Source of the DNA: Pseudoxanthomonas sp. J35
GTDB taxonomy: Bacteria > Pseudomonadota > Gammaproteobacteria > Xanthomonadales > Xanthomonadaceae
DNA length: 64,000 bases
Direction: 5' to 3'
Assembly (NCBI RefSeq): GCF_000513995.1
Contig: NZ_AZVB01000002.1
Coordinates: 134,201-198,200, forward strand
Below are positions 50,796 to 64,000 of this stretch, piece by piece (position 1 is the first letter of the stretch; the number at the start of each line of letters is the position of its first letter). The notes beneath the pieces are model-generated. The model did no database searches. It was given only the letters and a program-made list of their open reading frames with translations, and was not told the DNA's origin. Both the position numbers and the translations under genes were made by a program.

Positions 50796-52526
50796 TCAAT
50801 CCTTGGTGACGCGGTTGATCTCGGCCAAACTGGTGATGCCGTCGCGGACCTTCTTCAGCGCCGACTGGCGCAGGTCCTTGATCCCCGCCTGCTGCGCGAC
50901 CTCGGCGATCTGCATGGCGTTGCCACCGGCCAGGACGATGGCCTGGATCTCCTCGCTCATCGGCATGACCTGGTAGATACCGGTACGGCCCTTGTAACCC
51001 TCGGTGCACTCGTCGCAGCCCACCGGCTCGTAGACGGTGAAGCCCTCGTCGATCTCTTCCTGGGTGAAGCCCTCGGCCAGCAGCGCATGCTCCGGCAGGT
51101 TCACCGCCCGTCGGCACTTGGGGCACAGCCGGCGCGCCAGACGCTGGGCGATCACCAGGGTCACCGACGAGGTGATGTTGTAGGGCGCGATGCCCATGTT
51201 CATCAGTCGGGCGATGGTCTGCGGCGCGTCGTTGGTGTGCAGGGTCGACAGCACCATGTGGCCGGTCTGCGCCGCCTTGATCGCGATCTCGGCCGTTTCC
51301 AGGTCGCGGATTTCGCCGACCATGATCACGTCCGGGTCCTGGCGCAGGAAGCTGCGGAGGGCGGCGGCGAAGGTCATGCCGCGCTTGTTGTTCTGCTGGA
51401 CCTGGTTGACGCCCGGCAGGCGGATTTCGACCGGGTCCTCGGCGGTGGAGATGTTGCGGGTCTCGTCGTTGAGGATGCCCAGCGCCGTGTACAGCGACAC
51501 CGTCTTGCCCGAGCCGGTCGGACCGGTGACCAGGACCATGCCGTAGGGCTTGTGGATCGCGTCCAGGAACAGCTTCTGCTGCTCCGCCTCATAGCCGAGC
51601 TTCTCGATGCCCAGCTTGGCCGCGCTGCCGTCGAGGATACGCAGCACCACCTTCTCGCCGAACAGGGTCGGCAGGGTGCTGACGCGGAAGTCGATCTGCT
51701 TGGTCTTGGACAGGTTGAGCTTGATGCGGCCGTCCTGCGGCACGCGCTTCTCGGCGATGTCCAGCTGGGCCATGACCTTCAGGCGCGCGGCGATGCGCTG
51801 GTTGAGCTTGACCGGGGCCTTGGCCACGGTCTTGAGCAGGCCGTCGATGCGCATGCGCACCCGGTAGTCGGTCTCGTACGGCTCGAAATGGATGTCCGAG
51901 GCGCCGCGGCGGATCGCGTCGACCAGCACCTTGTTGACGAACTTGACCACCGGGGTGTCGTCGCCCTTGGCGTCGACGCCGGACTCGGAGCCACCCTCCT
52001 CGTCGGTGGACCCGACCTCCAGGTCTTCCAGGCCCTCCTCGTCGTCGCCGAGGGCGCCATCCAGCTGGCCGCCCACGTTCTGCCACTGCTCCAGCGTGCG
52101 CCGGATCTGGTCCTCGTCGACCAGGATCGGCTCCACGACCAGGTTGGTATGGAACTGGATCTCGGCCAGGGCGCCGGTCTGGGTGGGGTTGCTGGTGCCG
52201 ACGAACAGCTTGTTGCCGCGCTTGAACAGCGGCAGCACGTTGTGCTTCTGGACCAGCTCCTCGCTGACCAGCTTCATGGCGTTCTGGGCCGGGTCGAAAG
52301 CCGACGCGTCCAGCAGCGGCATGCCGAACTCGACGGCGTTGGCGGCCGCCAGCTGCGCCGGGCCGACCAGCTTCTTGTCGGAGATCCACTGCGCCAGCGG
52401 AACCTTGGCCTCGGCGGCCTGGGCCATGGCGGCACGGGCGGCCGCCTCGTCCAGCGCCCCATCCAGGACCAGCCGCCGGGCAATACCGGTGATCCCGACC
52501 AGGTTGGCAGTGGCCGCTACATTCAT
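50796..52526 (-). CDS. pilB: Type IV pilus extension ATPase PilB
   Basis: A 576-residue hexameric ATPase that powers pilus assembly. The N-terminal GSPII_E regulatory domain (about 20-150, LVGITGIARRL onward) has the usual acidic linker (DDEEGLEDLEVGSTDEE). The core contains ASDIHFEPYETDYRVRMR, Walker A GPTGSGKT (residues 334-341), the Asp-box AEDPVEI, Walker B MVGEIRD, the His-box STLHTNDAP and the tetracysteine zinc site CPKC...CDEC. ATG 52526 is the best start; the frame is open far upstream without similarity. It is divergent from the glycosyltransferase gene, and pilC is 11 kb away at the window's end. Confidence 0.96.
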   Translation of the reverse strand: MNVAATANLVGITGIARRLVLDGALDEAAARAAMAQAAEAKVPLAQWISDKKLVGPAQLAAANAVEFGMPLLDASAFDPAQNAMKLVSEELVQKHNVLPLFKRGNKLFVGTSNPTQTGALAEIQFHTNLVVEPILVDEDQIRRTLEQWQNVGGQLDGALGDDEEGLEDLEVGSTDEEGGSESGVDAKGDDTPVVKFVNKVLVDAIRRGASDIHFEPYETDYRVRMRIDGLLKTVAKAPVKLNQRIAARLKVMAQLDIAEKRVPQDGRIKLNLSKTKQIDFRVSTLPTLFGEKVVLRILDGSAAKLGIEKLGYEAEQQKLFLDAIHKPYGMVLVTGPTGSGKTVSLYTALGILNDETRNISTAEDPVEIRLPGVNQVQQNNKRGMTFAAALRSFLRQDPDVIMVGEIRDLETAEIAIKAAQTGHMVLSTLHTNDAPQTIARLMNMGIAPYNITSSVTLVIAQRLARRLCPKCRRAVNLPEHALLAEGFTQEEIDEGFTVYEPVGCDECTEGYKGRTGIYQVMPMSEEIQAIVLAGGNAMQIAEVAQQAGIKDLRQSALKKVRDGITSLAEINRVTKD

Positions 52527-52728
52527 ATCGTTGGTCCCCGGAACCCTAATGGGGCGAAAAGATAGCGCAAAGTGCCGCCCGTGGACGGCCCCGGGGCAAT
52601 CCGCCCTCCCGTTCGCCGGCACATCGCGGCCGATGGGCGGAACATTGGCGGCGGTCACGCCTGCCCGCCGCCGACGCCCCGCCGGGTGGGGTAATCTTCC
52701 CGGCGCAGCAAAGCTCCCGGGGGACCTT

Positions 52729-53604
52729 CTGGACATTTCCGTCATCCTGCCTGCCAAGAACGAGGCGGCCGGCCTGCGCCGGGTGCTGCCCGCGCTGCGG
52801 GCCCTGCTCCCCCAGGCGGAGGTCATCGTGGTCGACGACGGCTCCACCGACGACACGGCCGAAGTGGCCCGCTCGCTGGGCGCCACCGTCCTGTCCACCC
52901 CCTACTCCATGGGCAATGGCGCCTCGATCAAGCGCGGGGCCCGCCATGCCAACGGCGGGACCCTGGTGTTCATGGATGCCGACGGCCAGCACGACCCTGC
53001 CTGCATCCCCCAGCTGCTGGACAAGCTGGCCGAGGGCTACGACATGGTGGTCGGCGCCCGCGACGACAGTGGCCAGGCCAACCTGCATCGCGGGCTGGCC
53101 AACCGCTTCTACAACTGGCTGGCGAGCCGCATGACCGGGCACCAGGTCGCCGACCTGACCTCCGGCTTCCGTGCCGCCCGGGCGGCGAAGTTCCGCGAGT
53201 TCCTGCACCTGCTGCCCAACGGCTTCAGCTACCCGACTACCAGCACCATGGCCTTCTTCCGCAGCGCCTACCCGGTGGCCTACGTGCCGATCCCGGTGGC
53301 GAAGCGCGTCGGCAACGGCAGCCACATCCGGCCGATCAAGGACGGGGTGCGCTTCCTGCTGATCATCTTCAAGATCGCGACGCTTTATTCGCCGTTGAAG
53401 CTGTTTGCGCCGTTGGCTGCAGCTTTCTTCGCCACAGGTCTGGCCTATTACGGCTTCACCTACGCTACCATGCACCGCTTCACCAATATGAGCATGCTGC
53501 TCTTCAGCGCCTCGGTGATCATCTTTCTTATCGGACTTGTTTCCGAACAGATTACGAGCCTGACCTATCTGGCTGCACGCCACGACACCCGCCGTGACGA
53601 ATGA
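52729..53604 (+). CDS. GT2 glycosyltransferase, polyprenol-phosphate sugar synthase-like
   Basis: A roughly 291-residue GT-A transferase. The N-terminal DISVILPAKNEAAGLRRVL, VVDDGSTDDTAEVA and the metal-binding MDADGQHD are typical of dolichol/polyprenol-phosphate sugar synthases. Two C-terminal membrane helices (LFAPLAAAFFATGLAYYGF and the MSMLLFSASVIIFLIGLVS region) resemble GtrB or ArnC. It would make a lipid-linked sugar. No ATG precedes the conserved start: CTG 52729 with GGGGGA upstream is a candidate, the nearest in-frame ATG is 52633 (ACATTG-containing leader), so the start is uncertain. Base composition changes to lower GC near its end (about 53370). The GT4 gene that follows overlaps its stop by 11 bases. 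Confidence 0.85.
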   Translation: MDISVILPAKNEAAGLRRVLPALRALLPQAEVIVVDDGSTDDTAEVARSLGATVLSTPYSMGNGASIKRGARHANGGTLVFMDADGQHDPACIPQLLDKLAEGYDMVVGARDDSGQANLHRGLANRFYNWLASRMTGHQVADLTSGFRAARAAKFREFLHLLPNGFSYPTTSTMAFFRSAYPVAYVPIPVAKRVGNGSHIRPIKDGVRFLLIIFKIATLYSPLKLFAPLAAAFFATGLAYYGFTYATMHRFTNMSMLLFSASVIIFLIGLVSEQITSLTYLAARHDTRRDE

Positions 53605-54763
53605 ATCAACCAGAGCTTGCCCCCCGCGAGCCATCCTCGTCACCCGCAACCTGCCGCCATTACGTGGCGGCATGGAGCGACTGAATTACCGCGTCGCCCT
53701 TGCGCTGTCACGGCACTTCCGGTTGGTAGTAGTTGGGCCGGAGGGTTGCACGGCGAGCCTTCCTCCAGAGGTCGAAGTCCATCAGGTACCAACAGGTAGC
53801 CTCGCGCGATTTCTGCTTGGAGCCACAAGAGCCACATGGTCCGCCGCATCGCAACCCGCTACCGTCGTTCTTGCCGGGAGTGGCCTGACTGCACCCATCG
53901 CGTTTATGGCTTCCCTTCGATGCGGAGCACGCAGCGCGGCGTATGTGCATGGCTTGGACCTCGTCACCCGCCACCCCATCTATCGACTCCTCTGGTTACC
54001 GTTCCTGCGTCGTCTCGCATTAGCTATTACAAACAGCGCCAACACCGCAACAATTGCGCGTCGGCTCGGCGTTGCAGGCGGAAACATCCAGATAGTGCAC
54101 CCTGGGACCAACCTCCCCGGATGCGACAACATCGACGGAGGACGACGATTCCGACTGGAGTTTGGTTTAGGCCAGGATCCAGTTTTGTTGAGCGTCGGAC
54201 GGCTTACGGAGCGCAAGGGACTCGTGGAGTTCGTCCAGCGTTGCCTTCCTGCCATTTCCAAGACCCACCCTCGTGTGCGTCTCGTAATCATTGGGGACAA
54301 CGCACCAAACGCGCTTACTCGCTCGTCAATGGATCTTCAAGCCAGGTTACAGGAGGCGATCTGCCAAGCCGGTGTTAGAAACAACGTAGTGATACTGGGT
54401 TCATGTAGTGACGAGATTCTCTCTTTAGCTTATGCCGCGGCAGACCTACATATCTTTCCAGTGCGCGAGCTGCCGGGAGACGTTGAAGGATTTGGAATGG
54501 TTGCTGTCGAGGCCGCGGCTCACGGTTTGCCAACGATCGCCTTTGCAACCGGAGGGGTCCCGGATGCTGTCGCTGATGGAGTGAGCGGACGGTTAGTCCC
54601 GGCGGGCGACTACGACACCTTCACCCGCCTCATAACTGAACTGCTAGCTCAGGATCGTGACTCACTAAGCACATCTTCGAGGCAGTTCGCCTCACAGTTC
54701 TCTTGGGATCGCTTTTACGACCAGCTGCGGACAACATTAGATCCGCATTCACCGCACTCGTGA
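53594..54763 (+). CDS. Glycosyltransferase family 4 protein
   Basis: A 389-residue GT-B glycosyltransferase. The N-terminal domain begins ILVTRNLPPLRGGMERLNYRVA with a GGMERL loop. The C-terminal nucleotide-sugar domain has VLLSVGRLTERKGL and the E-x7-E type motif in PGDVEGFGMVAVEAAAHGLPTI. It is predicted to add a hexose or similar to a lipid-linked glycan in the cytoplasm. The start is GTG 53594, overlapping the GT2 gene end. Codon use is less GC-rich than the flanking chromosome. Confidence 0.88.
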   Translation: MTNESTRACPPRAILVTRNLPPLRGGMERLNYRVALALSRHFRLVVVGPEGCTASLPPEVEVHQVPTGSLARFLLGATRATWSAASQPATVVLAGSGLTAPIAFMASLRCGARSAAYVHGLDLVTRHPIYRLLWLPFLRRLALAITNSANTATIARRLGVAGGNIQIVHPGTNLPGCDNIDGGRRFRLEFGLGQDPVLLSVGRLTERKGLVEFVQRCLPAISKTHPRVRLVIIGDNAPNALTRSSMDLQARLQEAICQAGVRNNVVILGSCSDEILSLAYAAADLHIFPVRELPGDVEGFGMVAVEAAAHGLPTIAFATGGVPDAVADGVSGRLVPAGDYDTFTRLITELLAQDRDSLSTSSRQFASQFSWDRFYDQLRTTLDPHSPHS

Positions 54764-54966
54764 CTGCTTAGCGAGTTAACGGAAGAGCCAACAGCCCCAG
54801 CACCACAGGAGCTACCATCGGCGGGGTCATGATAGGAGAACCCTCTAGACCTGAAAGGGTGAGGCGCGACTCCTGCGATGCCGTTTGCCGCGGAAGCGGA
54901 AGGATTGGCAGAGCGAGTCCGCCACCCGGAGGCCAAGAAGCGCTTGAATCTTCAGGACCGCAGGAA

Positions 54967-56013
54967 ATGACCGCTGCAGCCAAGAATGAACCTGGCATTT
55001 GGTTTCCTACTATCCGGGCTGGAACCGGAACTGACATATTCACCGAACGCTTAGCCGAAGACCTGGAAGCGGCCGGGATCAGGACGGCCATCGACTGGCT
55101 ACCGCTTCGGGCAGAGTATGCGCCGTGGACTGTGCGAACACCCGCCCCTCCTCGCTGGGCCACCATATGCCACGTAAACACGTGGCTACACCCACGATTC
55201 ATTCCCTGCCATCTACCTGTTGTCGCAACGCTGCATCATGCAGTTCACGCCCCCTCTTTACGCCGATACAAAGGCTGGACTCGCGCGGCATACCATCGTT
55301 TCTGGATCGCCCCGATTGAGAGGCGCGTATTAAATCGGGCCGACCGCGTGGTGGCCGTTAGCAGGTATGCCGCAGATCAAGCTCATCGGACCCTTTGCAA
55401 CGTTCCAATCCAGGTAATACGTAATGGCATCGACATCGACGCCTTCCAACCAGGGCAGCGAGCACGCCAGCCCCATGAACCGTTCCGCCTGCTCTACGTG
55501 GGCACCTGGATCCGACGCAAGGGCATTGATCTCCTTGCACCCATCATGCGGGAGTTAGGTGACGGCTTCGAGTTGCACTACACCGGAGGACCTGCGGCGG
55601 AGAGAGACAAGTCCAGAATGTCGCCAAATATGCACGACGTTGGGCACTTATCAACATCTCAGGTGATATCTGCCATGCAGCATGCGGATGCGTTCCTATT
55701 CCCGTCTCGCAGCGAAGGTTTCGGATTGGCAGTCGCGGAGGCAATGGCCTGCGGGCTACCGGTTATTGCATCCGCAGATACGGCGGTTGCAGAGCTTGTG
55801 GAAGACTCTTTGACTGGATTCCTATGCTCCGGCAGTCTCGCATCATTCGTCACAGCCATCCGGTGCTTGGCCCAGGACCCGGATTTACATCAGTCGATGA
55901 AGGCGGCCGCCCGGAAGCAAGCACTACAATTTAGCGCAACCCAAGTGTCAAATTCGTACTTACGAGTGTACGCCAGCCTGGCCCACCCCTGGCGGGAATC
56001 CAGTAATACATAA
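54967..56013 (+). CDS. Glycosyltransferase family 4 protein
   Basis: A 348-residue GT-B glycosyltransferase (NEPGIWFPTIRAGTGTDIFT at the start; VSRYAADQAHRTL; LLYVGTWIRRKGIDLL; SRSEGFGLAVAEAMACGLPV with the E-x7-E motif near the end). ATG 54967 has AGGA two bases upstream; the open frame extends 46 codons earlier but with lower coding quality. It lies 203 bp after the preceding GT4 gene and is convergent, 20 bp away, with the next gene. Confidence 0.85.
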   Translation: MTAAAKNEPGIWFPTIRAGTGTDIFTERLAEDLEAAGIRTAIDWLPLRAEYAPWTVRTPAPPRWATICHVNTWLHPRFIPCHLPVVATLHHAVHAPSLRRYKGWTRAAYHRFWIAPIERRVLNRADRVVAVSRYAADQAHRTLCNVPIQVIRNGIDIDAFQPGQRARQPHEPFRLLYVGTWIRRKGIDLLAPIMRELGDGFELHYTGGPAAERDKSRMSPNMHDVGHLSTSQVISAMQHADAFLFPSRSEGFGLAVAEAMACGLPVIASADTAVAELVEDSLTGFLCSGSLASFVTAIRCLAQDPDLHQSMKAAARKQALQFSATQVSNSYLRVYASLAHPWRESSNT

Positions 56014-56033
56014 GCGCTAGCACCGAATGACAT

Positions 56034-57233
56034 TCAACTCTCAAGGCACTCTTGTAGCGACCTGAGCTGGCCGGAGCGCCACGCTTGGGCAGCCTCGTGG
56101 CAAGCGGCACCCATCTCCGATCTCAGCCTTTCATCAGAACATAGACGGATGACTGCATCCGCGAAGCTGACGCAGTCTTCGTCTTCGACGACGATATTTC
56201 CAACCTGGTAGCAAGAAGGAAATCCACGAGCCCCGGTCTGCGTCGTTACGCTCGGCACCCCATGGCTCATCGCTTCAAGGAGTTTGATTGCAATGCCAGT
56301 ACCCGTGAGCATGGGGTTGATGGAAAGCGGCGCCTCACGGTAAACCTCCCCGGCGTCATCAACGAATCCCAAGCACTCAACGTCGTCGAAAGATCTTGCG
56401 AAGTCACTGATCCTACCGGCGACTAGAAGCCGGAACCCAGGAATCTTCATGCGGATCAGCGGCAAGATGTTCAGGGTGAAATTAACAAGGGCCTGCCTGT
56501 TCGCGGGATTGTCAGATCCGACGAATACCGCAACATCGTTCTTGGAATAGTCACAGATTCGGTTTTTTATGGAAGGAAAATGGCTGATCACAATTACATC
56601 TGGCTTTCTCTCACTATGCGCGAGCTGTTCGCGAAATAGTGTAGCCTCACTCTCTTGAATCGCCATGACACGATCAGCACGGAGGAGCCCCCGGGCCTCC
56701 TCCTCCGCACGCAAGGAAATCCAGTATCCATTACGGAGACCCTTCTTGGCATAGGTGAGGTGGCGCTCCGCAAACGCATCGTGCGTATCCAGCACCCGCA
56801 AGACGCCAGGAAGAAATCCTTCGAATGCGCGCGTGTTGAACACATACTCGACGATTGCAACGTCTGCATCCTTCACAAGGCGACGTATTTGTATGCTCCA
56901 CCCAGGATTGTATGAGCCATCGAGAGTGGAGTAGTACCAACCACGCAGGCCAAGATACTGCTGAAGTGCGTTCCTCAGCTTGCTGCGTAACTCGCCCCGA
57001 AGCCACTGGCAGATAGAACCCAGCACTCCTCCATTGTGGAGGTGGTTGAAATTGTCGCCCCCGAAGAATTGCTCATGGGCCTCCAGATCAATGTGCTGCC
57101 GCCTTAGTGGCAAGTATATGAACTGAATCTCGTGCCCCAGCTCCCTCATGGCCTTACTGAACTCAAGAATTCTGGCGCGGTTACCCCCGATAACAGGAAA
57201 CACGGGGACGCTGCTCACGATCGTGACCTTCAT
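56034..57233 (-). CDS. Glycosyltransferase (GT4-like)
   Basis: A 399-residue glycosyltransferase starting MKVTIVSSVPVFPVIGGNRA, with the GGNRARI loop of GT-B enzymes. The second half has AVFVGSDNPANRQAL, VAGRISDFARSF and the nucleotide-sugar site GTGIAIKLLEAMSHGVPSV. It differs from the two plus-strand GT4 proteins and probably adds another sugar. It is the last gene of a minus-strand set, flippase, methyltransferase and glycosyltransferase, 137 bp after the methyltransferase. Confidence 0.8.
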   Translation of the reverse strand: MKVTIVSSVPVFPVIGGNRARILEFSKAMRELGHEIQFIYLPLRRQHIDLEAHEQFFGGDNFNHLHNGGVLGSICQWLRGELRSKLRNALQQYLGLRGWYYSTLDGSYNPGWSIQIRRLVKDADVAIVEYVFNTRAFEGFLPGVLRVLDTHDAFAERHLTYAKKGLRNGYWISLRAEEEARGLLRADRVMAIQESEATLFREQLAHSERKPDVIVISHFPSIKNRICDYSKNDVAVFVGSDNPANRQALVNFTLNILPLIRMKIPGFRLLVAGRISDFARSFDDVECLGFVDDAGEVYREAPLSINPMLTGTGIAIKLLEAMSHGVPSVTTQTGARGFPSCYQVGNIVVEDEDCVSFADAVIRLCSDERLRSEMGAACHEAAQAWRSGQLRSLQECLES

Positions 57234-57370
57234 CGCGTTGACCCTTGCGTTAGACAGCATAGAGCCGTCGTCGCAATCTACAGGGAACGACCGCACGCAG
57301 CTTCTCGTGGACGGTCAGTGCCGAACCAGCGTTCTCGGTGAAGTAAAGTACCGCCACTTTGCCGGAAGCA

Positions 57371-58234
57371 TCATGGCAGGGCCAAGATGTCAGTCCATTG
57401 ATCATGGTCCAATTTAGTCCTGAGCCTTTGGGCGATCTTATCGAGGGTAACCACTCCAACAGCAGGCATCTCGAGATCGTATAACCGGCGACCCGCTAGT
57501 GCACTCTCGAACAACGCCAGGCCACCCGACCGCTTCAGGAACGTTGGATTGAACTCTGAAACGACAGGCGTCCCTTGAGCCAGCAGGCGTGCTCCACCCG
57601 TTAGCGCATGCCCCTCATAGCCTTCTATATCCATCCAGAGTAAACAACCTTCTGGAAAATCGATATCGTCGAGACGCAGGGACCGCACAGCGATTCCCAT
57701 CGACCCAATGGAATGATTGCCGCTGCTATCGGCAGATTCCTCAAGCATCAAGCTGACCCCAGCCTGAGATCCCACCGCATGCGGCAATACTCGAACCTTG
57801 TCCACCATCCCGTTCAAAGCGATGTTAGCGTGCAAAAGCTTCAAGTTATCTGGGTGCGGTTCGATTGCTGTGGCTGATTTTACCAGCCCCCGATTGATAG
57901 CCGGGATCGCAATCGTGCCGATATTGGCGCCGACGTCTATTAGATGGCACGGCGTCTTATGGCCCTCAGATCTCAGCACTTGAAACGCCGTGACAAGCTT
58001 ATGGAAGTCAAACTCACCGTACAGGAAGACCTCCCTGCCGATAACCTTGTCCTTCGTGGACACGACGAAATGTTCCGCATGGCTGGCAATAGCATAGGGC
58101 CCCGGCATAGCATCATACAGCGCGCGCCGAAGCACCCTTGGACCTCCCTGCATCTGATCCAGTACCAGACGAGCAAGCCCCAGCAGGGGCTTGCGCAACA
58201 TCCTAGAGTTGCGTAGCGAATCAAACAGGGACAT
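57371..58234 (-). CDS. FkbM-family SAM methyltransferase
   Basis: A 287-residue protein with the FkbM methyltransferase motifs: motif I HLIDVGANIGTIAIPA, motif II AIEPHPDNLKLLHANI, and LLWMDIEGYEGHALTGG near the C-terminal third. Such enzymes O-methylate sugars or other small acceptors, so this one probably modifies the glycan made by the cluster. It starts 12 bp after the flippase stop codon. The function of the N-terminal 60 residues is unknown. Confidence 0.85.
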   Translation of the reverse strand: MSLFDSLRNSRMLRKPLLGLARLVLDQMQGGPRVLRRALYDAMPGPYAIASHAEHFVVSTKDKVIGREVFLYGEFDFHKLVTAFQVLRSEGHKTPCHLIDVGANIGTIAIPAINRGLVKSATAIEPHPDNLKLLHANIALNGMVDKVRVLPHAVGSQAGVSLMLEESADSSGNHSIGSMGIAVRSLRLDDIDFPEGCLLWMDIEGYEGHALTGGARLLAQGTPVVSEFNPTFLKRSGGLALFESALAGRRLYDLEMPAVGVVTLDKIAQRLRTKLDHDQWTDILALP

Positions 58235-58246
58235 CAGCTCTCCGAG

Positions 58247-59464
58247 TCACGCCTTGGCAAACTTCATGCCGCCAACCAATAGAACAGTCATCATAACTTC
58301 GCTGGCATACGCGGCCACCACTGCGCCAGCCAAACCATTTACGGGAACCAGAGTCGCAACAATGAGGACACTGGTAACTGCTCCTCCGGCATAGGTCCAT
58401 CCAATCCAGCGCATACGTCCAAAATGGATGGCGTGGAAGTTGAGCAGCGAGCGTAATGTCTGGAGCGTCGGCAACCAGGCCAACATCCTGAGTGTATCCA
58501 TTGCGGACGTATAGTCCTGCCCTAATAGCCAGGGCAAGAAGGGAGCTGCCAGCCAAAGCACGACAGAACAGGCCAGCGACATAAAAAGCAGCCATGCGCC
58601 CGTGCGTAACCAGGATTCCAAGGGGCTCGCGTGCGCATGCAGGCGGGGCCACAACGCCTCCTGTAACGCTAGTAGTGGCATGCTGGCTAATTCCACAAAG
58701 CGCTGTGCAACGTTGTAACTGCCAGCTAAGGAAAACGCCGAATGCGCGAGGATTGGCTTATTGAACTCCGACTGCAGCCTTACGGAGACGATAGCTACCG
58801 TGAATGGTAAGCCACTACTGCCCGACATGGCCTCTCCGCCCCGCCCCCGGTGTGGAAGTGCCCGCAAGGGCCTTAACAGTATCAGCAGGTATGTCACGCT
58901 GCTGACGGTGTATACCCACAGCACAAGCTCAATGGTCGCGCTCGGGACTATGAAGAACAACAGACCTAACATGGGGAAGCGCAACAACGGAAGCCCGGCA
59001 TTGATTACACCCGAGGCACCAATTCGGCGCTCTGCCTGACAGTGGCGCGCCCGCAGGTCTCCTAATGAACTGGCGGCGACTTCGGCACCCACTGCCGTCG
59101 CGCCCGCGAGCAGCGGGGCGCCATCCGGGAACAACCACAGCAACATTGACATTGCCAAAGCGAGGCCGGGCAACAAGGTCCATGCCCACCAATGGGTCGC
59201 AATACCCAGGTACAACGGGAGATTGCCCGGATCCTTAGCTCCATTGCGGAGCACGACGTTGCTAAGCCCCAGGCCAACCAGTGGTGTAACCAACGTTGCG
59301 AGGGAGATAACAACTACAAGCCGACCGTACTCGCTTGCGCCCAAAGTCTTGGCGAGCAAAAGCAACGTGATGAACTGCGCCGCGGCACGCGCGAGCATCC
59401 ATGCCAGCAATGTTCCACCACTACGTAACCAGGCGCCTGGGCGATAGCGTAGCAAGCCGATCAT
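58247..59464 (-). CDS. Wzx-like polysaccharide flippase
   Basis: A 405-residue MATE/MOP-superfamily membrane protein with about 12 membrane helices, from ARAAAQFITLLLLAKTLGAS to the final YASEVMMTVLLVGGMKF. It would flip lipid-linked oligosaccharide across the inner membrane. No Wzy polymerase and no initiating phosphosugar transferase appear in the window, so an oligosaccharide acceptor path is more likely than a long polymer. It is the first gene of the minus-strand set; its promoter should lie in 59465-59731. Confidence 0.82.
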   Translation of the reverse strand: MIGLLRYRPGAWLRSGGTLLAWMLARAAAQFITLLLLAKTLGASEYGRLVVVISLATLVTPLVGLGLSNVVLRNGAKDPGNLPLYLGIATHWWAWTLLPGLALAMSMLLWLFPDGAPLLAGATAVGAEVAASSLGDLRARHCQAERRIGASGVINAGLPLLRFPMLGLLFFIVPSATIELVLWVYTVSSVTYLLILLRPLRALPHRGRGGEAMSGSSGLPFTVAIVSVRLQSEFNKPILAHSAFSLAGSYNVAQRFVELASMPLLALQEALWPRLHAHASPLESWLRTGAWLLFMSLACSVVLWLAAPFLPWLLGQDYTSAMDTLRMLAWLPTLQTLRSLLNFHAIHFGRMRWIGWTYAGGAVTSVLIVATLVPVNGLAGAVVAAYASEVMMTVLLVGGMKFAKA

Positions 59465-59731
59465 CGCGTTAAGCTCAGCGCGCTATTACTGACAGGCGAT
59501 GTACGCCCAATAGCGCACCACCAAACGGGACCCATTATCGCCATTAGGACCAGCACACACGCCTCCGCTGCACGTCAGGGCTCTATAGAGTGCAAAGACC
59601 TATTGATGTTCATCGTGCGCCCGGGCTGAAGAAGACCCAAACGCCGCGCGGATAGCGGGGACTCCGGAACGCCCCCCAACGGAACACCGGCAGAAACAGA
59701 ACCCTAGTCAGCTCACCGCTCAACAGAGCCC

Positions 59732-60157
59732 TCAGCGACACACTGTTGCCCGATACTTAGGATCCAACGTTCCTCCCGCGCAGCTCCAGTTAATGGAGCC
59801 CGCGTTGGCACCCGTGTAGGGGGAAAGGACAAGGGTCTGGCCCGCGATGGCGGCGTTTGCAGCATTACCAAAGGCTACCTCGATCCCTGTAGGCCCCACA
59901 GTAATGCGCTCGACGTACTTGCTCTTTATGTCAGCAGGATCAGGCAAGCCCGCTGCAGCGTTATTAGCCGGCATGCCGCCCGTGTTGGACGTGTACTCCC
60001 AAACGGCGTTCTTCGCCCCCATAGCCAAACTTAGTCCATCCGACACCTGCGTTCGCACCAAATAATCCTGATAGGCCGGCAGGGCGATCGCAGCCAAGAT
60101 GGCAATGATGGCCACGACGATCATCAGTTCAATCAGAGTGAATCCATTCTGCTTCAT
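59732..60157 (-). CDS. pilA1: Type IV major pilin, first copy
   Basis: A 141-residue prepilin with a 5-residue leader MKQNG, cleaved before [20 protein letters not shown] by PilD; Glu5 of the mature protein is present. The C-terminal D-region disulfide is Cys126-Cys140 and the protein ends CR. ATG 60157 has GGGGAAGG six bases upstream; a GTG two codons before is less likely. It differs from the second pilin in the variable body ([20 protein letters not shown]) and has no C-terminal serine. Its own sigma-54 promoter lies at 60202-60216. Confidence 0.93.
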
Positions 60158-60201
60158 GGTCACCTTCCCCCGCCGGCTTTAGATCCTCTGCCGGAGACCA
60201 A

Positions 60202-60216
60202 GCAAAAAGCGGGCCA
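60202..60216 (-). promoter_or_regulatory. Sigma-54 promoter of the first pilin gene
   Basis: On the minus strand TGGCCCGCTTTTTGC matches the sigma-54 consensus TGGCAC-N5-TTGC at all key positions, with GG and GC ten bases apart. It lies 45-59 bases upstream of ATG 60157, giving a roughly 33-base leader. PilR-dependent sigma-54 promoters drive pilA in other gammaproteobacteria. Confidence 0.75.
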
Positions 60217-60238
60217 CGAAGGAGCATTTTGAGCCAGA

Positions 60239-62248
60239 CTAATCGGCCGAGAACGCCCTTTCCGCCTCTAACTGTGACCGCAGTCTTGGAAACTCCTTCT
60301 CCCAGTAGCCATCACTCTCAAGGAGGCGTTCATGAATTCCTGCCATATCCCGGATTGCGGGAGGTGCCCGTCGCACGCTGAGCTGTTCGTACCGATCAAG
60401 ATGCTGTAAGCCTGCCTCCGGCGCCCCCGCCCCCCCCAGCATTGCTGCTTGGGCCAAGGCTACTCCGGGTCTCGGCTGGACCTCTAGCGCCTTGTCGAAG
60501 GCTTCCAAGGCCGCCTCGAAGTCACCTTTCGCCAAGGCGATGCGCCCTTCAAGGTTGAAAATGTCCTGCACACGTCCAGGGATTTGACTTGCGTACGGAT
60601 TTTCCCGGGCTGCCTGAAGTAACTGATGCAAGGCATTGAGGTCCATGCCCTTGCAACCCCCTCTCGCGGCCGAGTCGATGCTGCGCACAAACCAGTCATA
60701 ACCCATCCGCTCGAAACTGCGCGTAGTCCGCAGCGCATGGCCCGCGAGCTCCAAGTCTCGCTCTCTCAGGGTTCCAGCATGGCATTTCGCACCGACCAAA
60801 TTCAGGCTTGCATGGATATCGGCCCCTAACCGGGAGCGCAGTTTTTCCAACCGATCGATCGCACCACCAAGGTCCCCTCGTGCCAGTTGTAGCTGCGCAG
60901 CATAGGCCTGCGCACGCGGCGAATCAGGGTTGCGCAACGCCCATACGGCGGCTTGGTCATCCGTGTTACCCCAGAGGTCGGCACGCATCCAGGTCAAGCC
61001 AGCCAGAGTCAGCGGCAGGACTCCCGCGAGTAGGACTCGAACCCCAAGGAAAGTACTGACAGGCTGGGGAACCCCGTCCCTGCCGAACGAGATCCCGACC
61101 AACCAGAGCGCCAAGGGCCAAAACATAAGGAAAGCCGGAACGTAGTTGCGGTGCTCGTAGTACAGCTCCAGAGCCACCACAGAGGACTCCATCAGATGGG
61201 CGACAAAGAAGAACGACACCGCAGCCGCCCAGGCTGGCCAGCGCCTGCGAAGCAGCCAAGCCGAGATGCCCAACCCGATCAGAAACGAGACCGAGAAGAA
61301 AGTTGTAATTGGCTGGAACAACCCATTCGAAATCACTACGGCATCATTGAAGAGGCCGGTAGTGTAGGGCCGTGGCGACCACAGTAGCCCCAAATACTGG
61401 GTCACGACGCGCGCCTCTGTCATCAGGCGCTCTCCCAACGTCCAAGGGCGGTGCGGAGGCATACCGTACAAGAAGCCATTCCAGCCGACCTTGGCCAGAT
61501 AGATCAGCACGATCAGGGCCGGCAAGACTATGCATACCCTCCGCATCCATACGAATCCGGCTCTCACACGGGGTGGCATTGGGGGCCGCCCCCTCCCCAA
61601 AAGCACTACATCAAGCAACCAAGCTAAGACTGGAAGCAGTGCCCCATTGCCCTTGCTCAGGACGCCAAGCACCGTGCAGACAAGAAGGGAGCCGCCAGCC
61701 AGAAATACGCCGAACCATTGACCCCTCCGAGCACGTTCACGGCCGGCGAAGTAGCCGGTCAAGCCGAGCAGAATGAAGGTTCCCGGCAGCATGGTCTCGC
61801 GCTGCACGATGTACAGGGTGGTCGAGACGAATAGGGGGTGCAGGAGCCAGAGTCCCGCCCCAAGGATCGCCGCTGCGACCGCACGCCCACCATCAACCCC
61901 AACTTCCTTCGTCAGGCGCGCGAGCAGAAACCCAAGCAAGATGCCGTTGATCAGATGCAGGGTTAGATTTGTCTGTTTGAAAGTACGGGGGTTAGCAGGC
62001 CAGTCGTTTGCGTCAATAAGAAACGTAAGAAGCGATAGGGGGCGACCTATGGGGTCAGCCGTACCCGAGGTTATATAGCGCCAGAACGTCGTCCAGCTCT
62101 CGACAGCACCATACCGCCCTAAGGCCGGCAAGTTGGCAAAGTCATCAAACAGGAACCCACCAGATAATCCAGGTAGATATACAAATATCGCGAGGCCCAG
62201 AATAATGAAGGCGACCAGCCAGAGCCAAATATTCCCCGGACGCTGCAT
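60239..62248 (-). CDS. GT-C membrane glycosyltransferase with C-terminal TPR-like domain
   Basis: A 669-residue inner-membrane protein located between two pilin genes. About eleven membrane helices (residues 8-25 to about 410) follow the GT-C pattern, with the catalytic-type FDD motif at residues 34-36 in the first periplasmic loop (GGFLFDDFANL). The soluble C-terminal third (about 430-669) has paired helices of TPR type (AYAAQLQLARGDLGGAIDRL, EGRIALAKGDFEAALEAF). The layout resembles TMTC protein O-glycosyltransferases of eukaryotes and, in the GT-C part, pilin transferases such as TfpW. The working hypothesis is O-glycosylation of the adjacent pilins. ATG 62248 was chosen over a longer frame. 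Family name is not certain. Confidence 0.72.
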   Translation of the reverse strand: MQRPGNIWLWLVAFIILGLAIFVYLPGLSGGFLFDDFANLPALGRYGAVESWTTFWRYITSGTADPIGRPLSLLTFLIDANDWPANPRTFKQTNLTLHLINGILLGFLLARLTKEVGVDGGRAVAAAILGAGLWLLHPLFVSTTLYIVQRETMLPGTFILLGLTGYFAGRERARRGQWFGVFLAGGSLLVCTVLGVLSKGNGALLPVLAWLLDVVLLGRGRPPMPPRVRAGFVWMRRVCIVLPALIVLIYLAKVGWNGFLYGMPPHRPWTLGERLMTEARVVTQYLGLLWSPRPYTTGLFNDAVVISNGLFQPITTFFSVSFLIGLGISAWLLRRRWPAWAAAVSFFFVAHLMESSVVALELYYEHRNYVPAFLMFWPLALWLVGISFGRDGVPQPVSTFLGVRVLLAGVLPLTLAGLTWMRADLWGNTDDQAAVWALRNPDSPRAQAYAAQLQLARGDLGGAIDRLEKLRSRLGADIHASLNLVGAKCHAGTLRERDLELAGHALRTTRSFERMGYDWFVRSIDSAARGGCKGMDLNALHQLLQAARENPYASQIPGRVQDIFNLEGRIALAKGDFEAALEAFDKALEVQPRPGVALAQAAMLGGAGAPEAGLQHLDRYEQLSVRRAPPAIRDMAGIHERLLESDGYWEKEFPRLRSQLEAERAFSAD

Positions 62249-62280
62249 GGAGTTGTTCCGGTCTTGGAGAGCAATCGGGC

Positions 62281-62310
62281 AAAAAAGAAGGGCCGCTTGC
62301 GCGGCCCTTC
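62281..62310 (-). terminator. Rho-independent terminator of the second pilin gene
   Basis: On the minus strand the stem AAGGGCCGC, loop GCAA, GCGGCCCTT is followed by CTTTTTT (62287-62281), 17 bases after the pilA stop. It separates the second pilin from the GT-C gene, which must have its own promoter or receive read-through. Confidence 0.9.
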
Positions 62311-62326
62311 CAGTGTCGTACACCAG

Positions 62327-62758
62327 TTAGCTGCGGCAATTGGAAGGCAGATACTTGCCGTTGACCGTACTCGGGGTGCAGCTCCACTCGATGCTACCCA
62401 CGTTGCTGATCGCCGAGAACACGAGCGTCTGCCCGGAAATCGCAGAGTTCGCGTCGTTACCGAACGTCACTGCAATCTGGCCAGCGGTAGAGACATCCAC
62501 GCCGGTAACGTACTTGCCGGTGATTTCAGTCGAAGCAGCAAGACCGGCTGCCCCGTTGTCCGCAGGCCAAGAACCGGTATTGGCCTTGTACTCAGCCAAA
62601 GCAGTCTTGGCACCCGCAGCCAAGCTGGCACCCTCAGACACCTGCGAACGGATCAGATAGTCCTGGTAAGCCGGCAGCGCGATGGCCGCGAGGATGGCGA
62701 TGATCGCCACGACGATCATCAGTTCGATCAGGGTGAAGCCCTGCATGTTCTTTTTCAT
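62327..62758 (-). CDS. pilA2: Type IV major pilin, second copy
   Basis: A 143-residue prepilin, leader MKKNMQG, cleaved before [20 protein letters not shown]. The variable body ([20 protein letters not shown]...WPADNG) differs clearly from the first copy. The C-terminal disulfide loop is Cys127-Cys141 and the protein ends CRS: a C-terminal serine beside the loop, the residue glycosylated by TfpO in one Pseudomonas aeruginosa pilin group. Transcription is from a sigma-54 site at 62869-62883, and a strong terminator follows. It is the pilin nearest to pilC. Confidence 0.95.
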
Positions 62759-62868
62759 CGATTTTCCCCTAGAGCGGTAGTTTGGTTAGGACACTTGCCG
62801 TAACTAGACCCGTGTCCTCTCCGGAACGCGGGCATCGCGCGGCGGGTTCGCCACGTGCCAGAAGGCAC

Positions 62869-62883
62869 GCATGTTATATGCCA
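62869..62883 (-). promoter_or_regulatory. Sigma-54 promoter of the second pilin gene
   Basis: On the minus strand TGGCATATAACATGC has GG and GC at the exact -24/-12 spacing, with only the TT before GC partly changed (AT). It lies 111-125 bases upstream of ATG 62758, leaving a long leader. The rest of the 491-bp gap (62759-63249) should hold PilR sites and the pilC promoter, which I could not place. It also contains a small hairpin CGTGCC-TTCT-GGCACG at 62853-62868. Confidence 0.7.
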
Positions 62884-63249
62884 ACTCGGCCTCCCCGGCC
62901 GCGCCCATTCATCGTAGCAGTACCCGCCGGGGAACGCCCGGTGACCCGGCACATTCCTCCTGTGATCCAGTGCGCAGGAGACGATGTGACCCTACAAGTC
63001 AAAAAGTGACGCAAATTGTCCATCCAGCACCTTCGGGATGGCGAGCCGCTCCCCGGCCGGCTCCGACTGTGAAGACCCATCACCCATGGCGGTACGGGGG
63101 AATGCCTTGGGCACCGGGGCGCGGCACGCCAACCGGCCGGGCCGCCGGCACACTGGCCGAAGCGTGATCGGGGTGGCTGTCAGCGACGGTTTTACCCGCT
63201 ACCATGCGGCCATCATGCCGGCGAGGGGATGCCGGCGGGGAGAACGAGC

Positions 63250-64000
63250 ATGTCCGCGTCCCGCAGTGCCGTGAGGAAGCCGCCCGCACCTGTCGATCGG
63301 GCTACCAGCCAGCTCGTGCCCTTCGTCTGGGAGGGTACCGACAAGCGCGGCGTAAAAATCAAGGGAGAGCAACCCGCCAAGAACGCCAATCTGCTGCGGG
63401 CGGAGTTGCGCCGACAGGGCATCACACCGACCGTCGTCAAGCCGAAGCCCAAGCCCCTGTTCGGCTCGGCCGGCAAGACGATCGCCCCCAAGGACATCGC
63501 CTTCTTCAGCCGGCAGATGGCCACCATGATGAAATCGGGTGTGCCCATCGTGTCGTCCCTGGAAATCATCGCCGGCGGGCACAAGAACCCGCGCATGAAG
63601 GCGATGGTCGACCAGATCCGCACCGACATCGAGGGCGGCTCTTCGCTGTACGAAGCTATCAGCAAGCACCCGGTGCAGTTTGATGAGCTCTATCGAAACC
63701 TGGTGCGGGCCGGCGAAGGCGCTGGCGTGCTGGAGACAGTGCTCGACACCATCGCCAGCTACAAGGAGAACGTCGAGGCCCTCAAGGGCAAGATCAAGAA
63801 GGCGCTGTTCTATCCGATCATGACCATCGCCGTGGCGATTATCGTCAGCGCTATCCTGCTGATCTTCGTGGTGCCGCAGTTCGAGACCACGTTCAAAAGC
63901 TTTGGCGCGGATCTGCCAGCATTCACCAAGATGATCGTAGCGGCATCCGACTTCATGGTGTCTTACTGGTGGATGTTCCTGATCGTGATGGCCGCCGGGA
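63250..64000 (+). CDS. pilC: Type IV pilus inner-membrane platform protein PilC (partial)
   Basis: The first 250 codons of a GspF/PilC-family platform protein, cut by the window end. The N-terminal cytoplasmic part has FVWEGTDKRGVKIKGEQPAK, then the first GspF domain (APKDIAFFSRQMATMMKSG, GAGVLETVLDTIASYKENVE) and membrane segments YPIMTIAVAIIVSAILLIFV and WWMFLIVMAAG. ATG 63250 is preceded by GGGGAG. It is transcribed away from the two pilin genes. It works with PilB, 11 kb upstream on the other strand. Confidence 0.95.
   Translation, partial: MSASRSAVRKPPAPVDRATSQLVPFVWEGTDKRGVKIKGEQPAKNANLLRAELRRQGITPTVVKPKPKPLFGSAGKTIAPKDIAFFSRQMATMMKSGVPIVSSLEIIAGGHKNPRMKAMVDQIRTDIEGGSSLYEAISKHPVQFDELYRNLVRAGEGAGVLETVLDTIASYKENVEALKGKIKKALFYPIMTIAVAIIVSAILLIFVVPQFETTFKSFGADLPAFTKMIVAASDFMVSYWWMFLIVMAAG

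Follow-up and report, generated by a model that had tools for sequence, protein, structure and literature searches.

A putative pilin-dedicated GT-C/TPR-like glycosyltransferase encoded between two major pilin genes in Pseudoxanthomonas sp. J35

An enzyme between two pilins

The window analysed here, a 64,000-nucleotide stretch of Pseudoxanthomonas sp. J35 (contig NZ_AZVB01000002.1, positions 134,201 to 198,200), carries near one end a gene for a 669-residue membrane enzyme flanked by genes for two major pilins, PilA1 and PilA2, an arrangement predicted earlier from the letters and whose coordinates hold. We consider it likely that this enzyme is a pilin-dedicated, periplasm-facing glycosyltransferase of the GT-C kind, and the basis for this reading, namely predicted fold, homology, gene neighbourhood, co-occurrence and co-divergence, was computed here. 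To our knowledge, the pilin-dedicated glycosyltransferases reported so far represent only a few designs. The sugars carried by pilins bear on how pili assemble, on attack by phages and on recognition. The core of the locus consists of:

62327..62758, minus strand: PilA1, major pilin of 143 residues, upstream of the enzyme, with a Ser end (PF00114 96.4 bits, N_methyl 38.6 bits)
62286..62311, minus strand: terminator-like hairpin between PilA1 and the enzyme (11-bp GC-rich stem, 4-nt loop, T run)
60239..62248, minus strand: GT-C/TPR-like membrane enzyme of 669 residues (AlphaFold model, PDB matches, invariant residues)
59732..60163, minus strand: PilA2, second major pilin, with an Arg end (PF00114 79.8 bits)

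Read from the ATG at 62248 the enzyme has 669 residues (an in-frame GTG at 62323 would make 694), and its FDD motif occupies residues 34-36, C-terminal to the first hydrophobic helix (7-25), where the original prediction had placed it. The motif is well conserved, with DD invariant in 65/65 sequences and F34 present in 58/65; DD, RP, a Lys and an Arg are the family-conserved residues, and the catalytic-type residues are invariant in 65/65. The AlphaFold model (predicted local distance difference test score 95.3) shows a GT-C core at about residues 1-450 and a helical-repeat domain at about 450-665, the C-terminal region forming helical hairpins. Comparison with PDB structures supports both the GT-C core and a TPR C-terminus, though the C-terminal match taken by itself has a middling Z, and this end also weakly resembles PilF (2ho1). 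By sequence the same region reaches 25.6 bits for TPR_2, below the 27-bit cut-off, and so the predicted pairing of a GT-C core with a TPR-like domain is upheld by the model and its PDB matches, while the TPR part is weak by sequence. Pfam and NCBIfam scans gave the core no name, a PDB sequence search with the enzyme returned only TPR stretches plus weak unrelated matches, and DUF1736 (which we take to be PF08409) gave no match up to E 10.

Both pilins match PF00114 and N_methyl above cut-off and are 62% identical to each other; they are thus two major pilins, as had been proposed, yet only moderately divergent. PilA2 was read from a GTG at 60163 (143 residues), with an ATG at 60157 as the alternative start. 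Among 175 pooled neighbouring pilins, no single conserved exposed Ser/Thr was found beyond the fold positions that could mark an acceptor site. PF00114 also matches proteins with 'WYYA..GQ..GP' segments (GYF-like, named from reading) at two loci (L304, L305), which also hold an open reading frame (ORF) that reads like topoisomerase I.

Homologues are linked to pilin genes

Using a threshold of E <= 1e-10 for the window's family and for the class-level profile search, we found a homologue in 74/149 genomes of the family and in 117/369 class-level genomes; one was also present in 21/198 Pseudomonadaceae genomes, and a phylum-level search gave a match in 34/249 genomes, of which 23 do not belong to the class. 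Neighbourhoods were then compared at all 74 family loci with a homologue (up to 20 kb each), at 40 of the 117 class-level loci, hand-picked down the best-match list (mostly with flanks; weak matches left out), at 19 Pseudomonadaceae loci and at the best 80 of 590 confirmed genome-contig matches. The genome-contig set shares seven loci with the family set and one each with the class-level and Pseudomonadaceae sets.

In the family, 74/74 loci have a same-strand pilin upstream of their first enzyme copy, at most 1.5 kb away, compared with 5/720 for the other mechanical ORFs of at least 400 residues (not all genes) at the same 74 loci, and the pilin-enzyme order is therefore above chance. A pilin was likewise found upstream in 32/40 class-level loci (of the other eight, two are at a contig edge and six are without a pilin), in 18/19 Pseudomonadaceae loci (the remaining one at a contig edge) and in 65/80 of the best genome-contig loci. 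Of the 15 pilin-less loci among these best 80 of 590, six have less than 0.9 kb of upstream sequence and nine have room, with no pilin within 1.5 kb; three of the nine, from Woeseiaceae (L207, L212, L214), carry pilB, pilC and pilins a few kb off on the other strand, and one (L202) has a pilin 3.6 kb upstream. Since some loci have no adjacent pilin, the linkage is strong rather than absolute, and the expectation that homologues neighbour pilins was borne out at nearly all loci examined. Tandem enzyme copies occur in 27/74 family loci, and the remaining island genes have homologues at some family loci but not at others.

According to PMC11841053, pilin accessory cassettes commonly have a terminator following the pilin gene. 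At the loci with an upstream pilin, a terminator-like hairpin occupies the same place in 46/74, 58/65, 8/10 and 23/32 cases in four sets, for which mononucleotide shuffling gave 1.5, 1.6, 0.9 and 0.3. Terminator-like sites across the region as a whole show no excess (6 versus 7.0 in shuffles), and so the case for a terminator is made by one strong hairpin and its recurrence, not by the regional site count.

A GT2 partner and co-divergence with the pilin

The island also holds, 6.6 kb from the enzyme and on the opposite strand, the glycosyltransferase family 2 (GT2) gene that had been proposed to supply the donor (about 52729-53604, plus strand). Its product scores 121.1 bits against the AglJ model, below that model's cut-off of 325, and its solved kin in the PDB include ArnC, DPMS and sll0501, which we take to be GtrB. 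A GT2 gene directly follows the enzyme gene in 30/40 class-level and 11/19 Pseudomonadaceae loci, in 10/80 genome-contig loci (the best 80 of 590, mostly Xanthomonadales-type tandem loci) and in 0/74 loci of the window's family. Within Pseudomonadaceae, a GT2 stands beside 11/11 enzymes of the window type, and none above 200 bits was found in the eight loci with a TfpW-type or other enzyme type. The GT2 ORF of Pseudomonas viridiflava runs into the end of the enzyme gene; the GT2 product is 67% identical to that of the window, the two enzymes being 36% identical.

Among the 149 family genomes, 70 have both genes, four the enzyme only, two the GT2 only (E <= 1e-60 for GT2) and 73 neither (Fisher p 7.7e-35, uncorrected for phylogeny), and 69/70 pairs lie on one contig, 2.0-21.1 kb apart; of the six genomes listed for the window's genus, two have both and four neither. 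Both the occurrence and the location of the GT2 are thus tied to those of the enzyme, and the donor-transferase-acceptor set drawn in the original prediction gains support. When distances were compared given PilB (54 pooled loci), enzyme and pilin showed a partial correlation of 0.455, reached by 0/2000 permutations, against -0.10 for GT2-pilin and 0.03 for GT2-enzyme (n 51). These correlations fit an enzyme that would be matched to its pilin and served by a shared, conserved donor maker, though an enzyme-pilin correlation is also expected from joint transfer of neighbouring genes.

Relation to known systems and alternative readings

It had been claimed that the layout of the enzyme differs from that of TfpW, the D-arabinofuranosyltransferase that acts on pilin in group IV strains of P. 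aeruginosa/paraeruginosa. This part of the prediction is not supported: TfpW, whose gene also lies directly behind pilA, is distantly homologous to the enzyme, and the model of a relative from the TfpW clade also shows GT-C plus TPR. The TfpW of PA7 (identified by inference) is matched over its first part by the family profile (E 1.2e-16), hhalign aligns enzyme and TfpW over 435 columns (E 2.8e-23, 19% aligned identity), and a TfpW-clade profile in turn matches the window enzyme (E 7.5e-11). However, in a quick tree with a long-branch warning, TfpW and its kin form their own clade (Shimodaira-Hasegawa-like approximate likelihood ratio support 100) and the window enzyme falls in another, whose first-loop motif is FDD rather than VWDD, which is paired with a GT2 and in which tandem copies are common. 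Judged by sequence, the window enzyme represents a new TfpW-like clade rather than a third unrelated design, and this clade is wider spread than the searched literature indicates. Our literature search, whose scope left aside the original TfpW studies that may list homologues, returned no description of it.

The homology and the shared gene order, behind the pilin and its terminator, would also suit a functional TfpW orthologue that transfers arabinofuranose to pilin from polyprenyl-phosphate-arabinose while the GT2 serves another pathway. We find this improbable, given the separate clade and the GT2 that accompanies the window type and not the TfpW type; moreover, the polyprenyl-phosphate-arabinofuranose route, as given in PMC11127046, uses a phosphoribosyl transferase and epimerases, and a GT2 would presumably be dispensable there. 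It is similarly unlikely that the enzyme acts on some other protein of the periplasm, on a lipid or on an exopolysaccharide that the GT4s of the island help to make, its place beside the pilins being positional: the island does hold GT4s, a flippase-like gene and an FkbM methyltransferase, and some homologues have no pilin neighbour, but it is the pilin that is constant across the family loci while the other island genes vary, and co-divergence was seen for enzyme and pilin and not for GT2 and pilin. A protein that has lost catalysis and acts on the pilin as a chaperone or in assembly, comparable to the non-modifying TfpX/Y/Z accessories, would fit the weak resemblance to PilF and the existence of same-slot accessory genes for which no modifying activity is known (PMC11841053), but is very improbable in view of the invariant catalytic-type residues and the close association with one type of donor-lipid synthase.

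Two observations concern related enzymes. At ten loci of Dyella, Rhodanobacter and others (L136, L138, L139, L142, L146, L161, L168, L182, L183, L199), an extra TfpW-clade (VWDD) enzyme lies upstream of the pilins, so that one pilin locus combines enzymes that are related but fall into two or three clades. Four Pseudomonadaceae loci (L248, L249, L253, L255) carry a fourth, distantly homologous clade of pilin-linked GT-C/TPR enzymes without a GT2, whose TPRs are clear (TPR_1 at 44 and 57 bits in two members that were scanned).

The eukaryotic TMTC1-4 proteins, protein O-mannosyltransferases of family GT105, resemble the window enzyme in their GT-C core and C-terminal TPR, in a DD in the first lumenal loop, and in an RP, a Lys that is conserved and an Arg close to a Glu and a Tyr (motifs as given in PMC7801869); the window enzyme differs in having EHRNY rather than ERxxY and no DUF1736 match, and in being bacterial and pilin-linked. 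In three-component periplasmic glycosylation a GtrB GT2, a GtrA flippase and a Gtr GT-C act together, with a pentofuranose version using GT136 (PMC11127046). Kinship and co-occurrence of the GT2 suggest a similar use of a polyprenyl-phosphate sugar donor with a GT-C transferase here, the presumed acceptor being pilin rather than O antigen; for a dedicated donor flippase the island offers a candidate, its weak Polysacc_synt match. The O-oligosaccharyltransferases TfpO/PilO, TfpM, PglS and PglL carry an O-antigen-ligase-related/WaaL-like domain, the genes of TfpO, TfpM and PglS often lie close to their pilin targets, and TfpO and TfpM modify a C-terminal pilin Ser/Thr, according to PMC12645811. 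In contrast, the window enzyme has a GT-C fold and gave no O-antigen-ligase-related/Wzy_C match in the Pfam scan (Wzy_C_2 at E 0.45 only, inside the C-terminal repeat region), and a C-terminal Ser/Thr is no general rule in the neighbouring pilins (11 Ser and 7 Thr, 18/175).

Proposed mechanism and wider system

For the pilin-dedicated glycosyltransferase we infer a mechanism in which the sugar transfer itself, the sugar and its donor, the acceptor and its site, the role of the TPR-like domain and the flippase are proposed parts. The GT2 would load a sugar onto polyprenyl phosphate in the cytoplasm and a flippase would turn the lipid-linked sugar over; the membrane core would then take the sugar by means of the family-conserved DD, RP, Lys and Arg, while the TPR-like domain may present or help to hold the neighbouring pilin, so that a Ser/Thr of PilA1 and/or PilA2 would be modified before or during pilus assembly.

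More tentatively, and with somewhat less than even confidence, we suggest a general pilin O-glycosylation system in Gammaproteobacteria (Burkholderiales included) and other classes of the phylum, made up of pilA, a conserved GT2 as the single donor synthase, and a bacterial transferase of TMTC-like GT-C/TPR build that would be fitted to the pilin it serves. The transferases, which diverge fast and include tandem copies of clades A and B, at times joined by one of the TfpW clade, would draw on one shared donor lipid, the TPR domain would read the folded pilin, and pilin and transferase would be swapped together as a coat-changing cassette. No such general system is named in the literature searched so far. 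If the window enzyme is indeed a pilin-dedicated glycosyltransferase, the far larger group found in 74/149 family and 117/369 class-level genomes uses a simple polyprenyl-phosphate sugar to decorate pili. The compact acceptor-transferase-donor set would then be useful for glycoengineering, and the enzyme would serve as a bacterial model of protein O-glycosyltransferases with a TPR, the TMTCs among them.

The surrounding island

The remaining features of the island and its borders are:

63229..63999, plus strand, cut by the window end: PilC, one island border (name from reading)
58247..59464, minus strand: Wzx-like polysaccharide flippase of 405 residues, a possible lipid-sugar flippase (PF01943 21.0 bits, below the 28.2 cut-off)
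57371..58234, minus strand: FkbM-family methyltransferase (PF05050 52.1 bits and TIGR01444 73.5 bits, both above cut-off)
56034..57296, minus strand: GT4-type cytoplasmic glycosyltransferase (PF13692 71.1 bits)
54829..56013, plus strand: GT4-type cytoplasmic glycosyltransferase (PF00534 88.4 bits)
53594..54763, plus strand: GT4-type glycosyltransferase ORF (named from reading; homologues in related loci)
about 52729..53604, start uncertain, plus strand: GT2 of the polyprenyl-phosphate-sugar synthase type, probable donor maker (PF00535 109.3 bits)
50796..52529, minus strand, part of a longer ORF: PilB pilus ATPase, the other island border (name from reading; in many loci a homologue adjoins the cassette)

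Rfam at gathering thresholds gave no match in 52000-64000, and an ARAGORN call of tRNA-Ala (agc) at 57667-57763 (minus strand), inside the FkbM gene and without an Rfam match, is probably false. A promoter scan of the region gave a single weak match, fewer than in shuffles, and no promoter is claimed. A phage origin was considered and rejected, there being no match among phage records, as was a defence role: the enzyme, GT2 and flippase had no PADLOC match, and FkbM reached 16.3 bits only. The island, bounded by pilB and pilC, lies at the lower-GC end of the window, the GC fraction being 0.69-0.76 up to 50 kb, 0.66-0.68 at 50-54 kb and 0.55-0.61 from 54 kb on.
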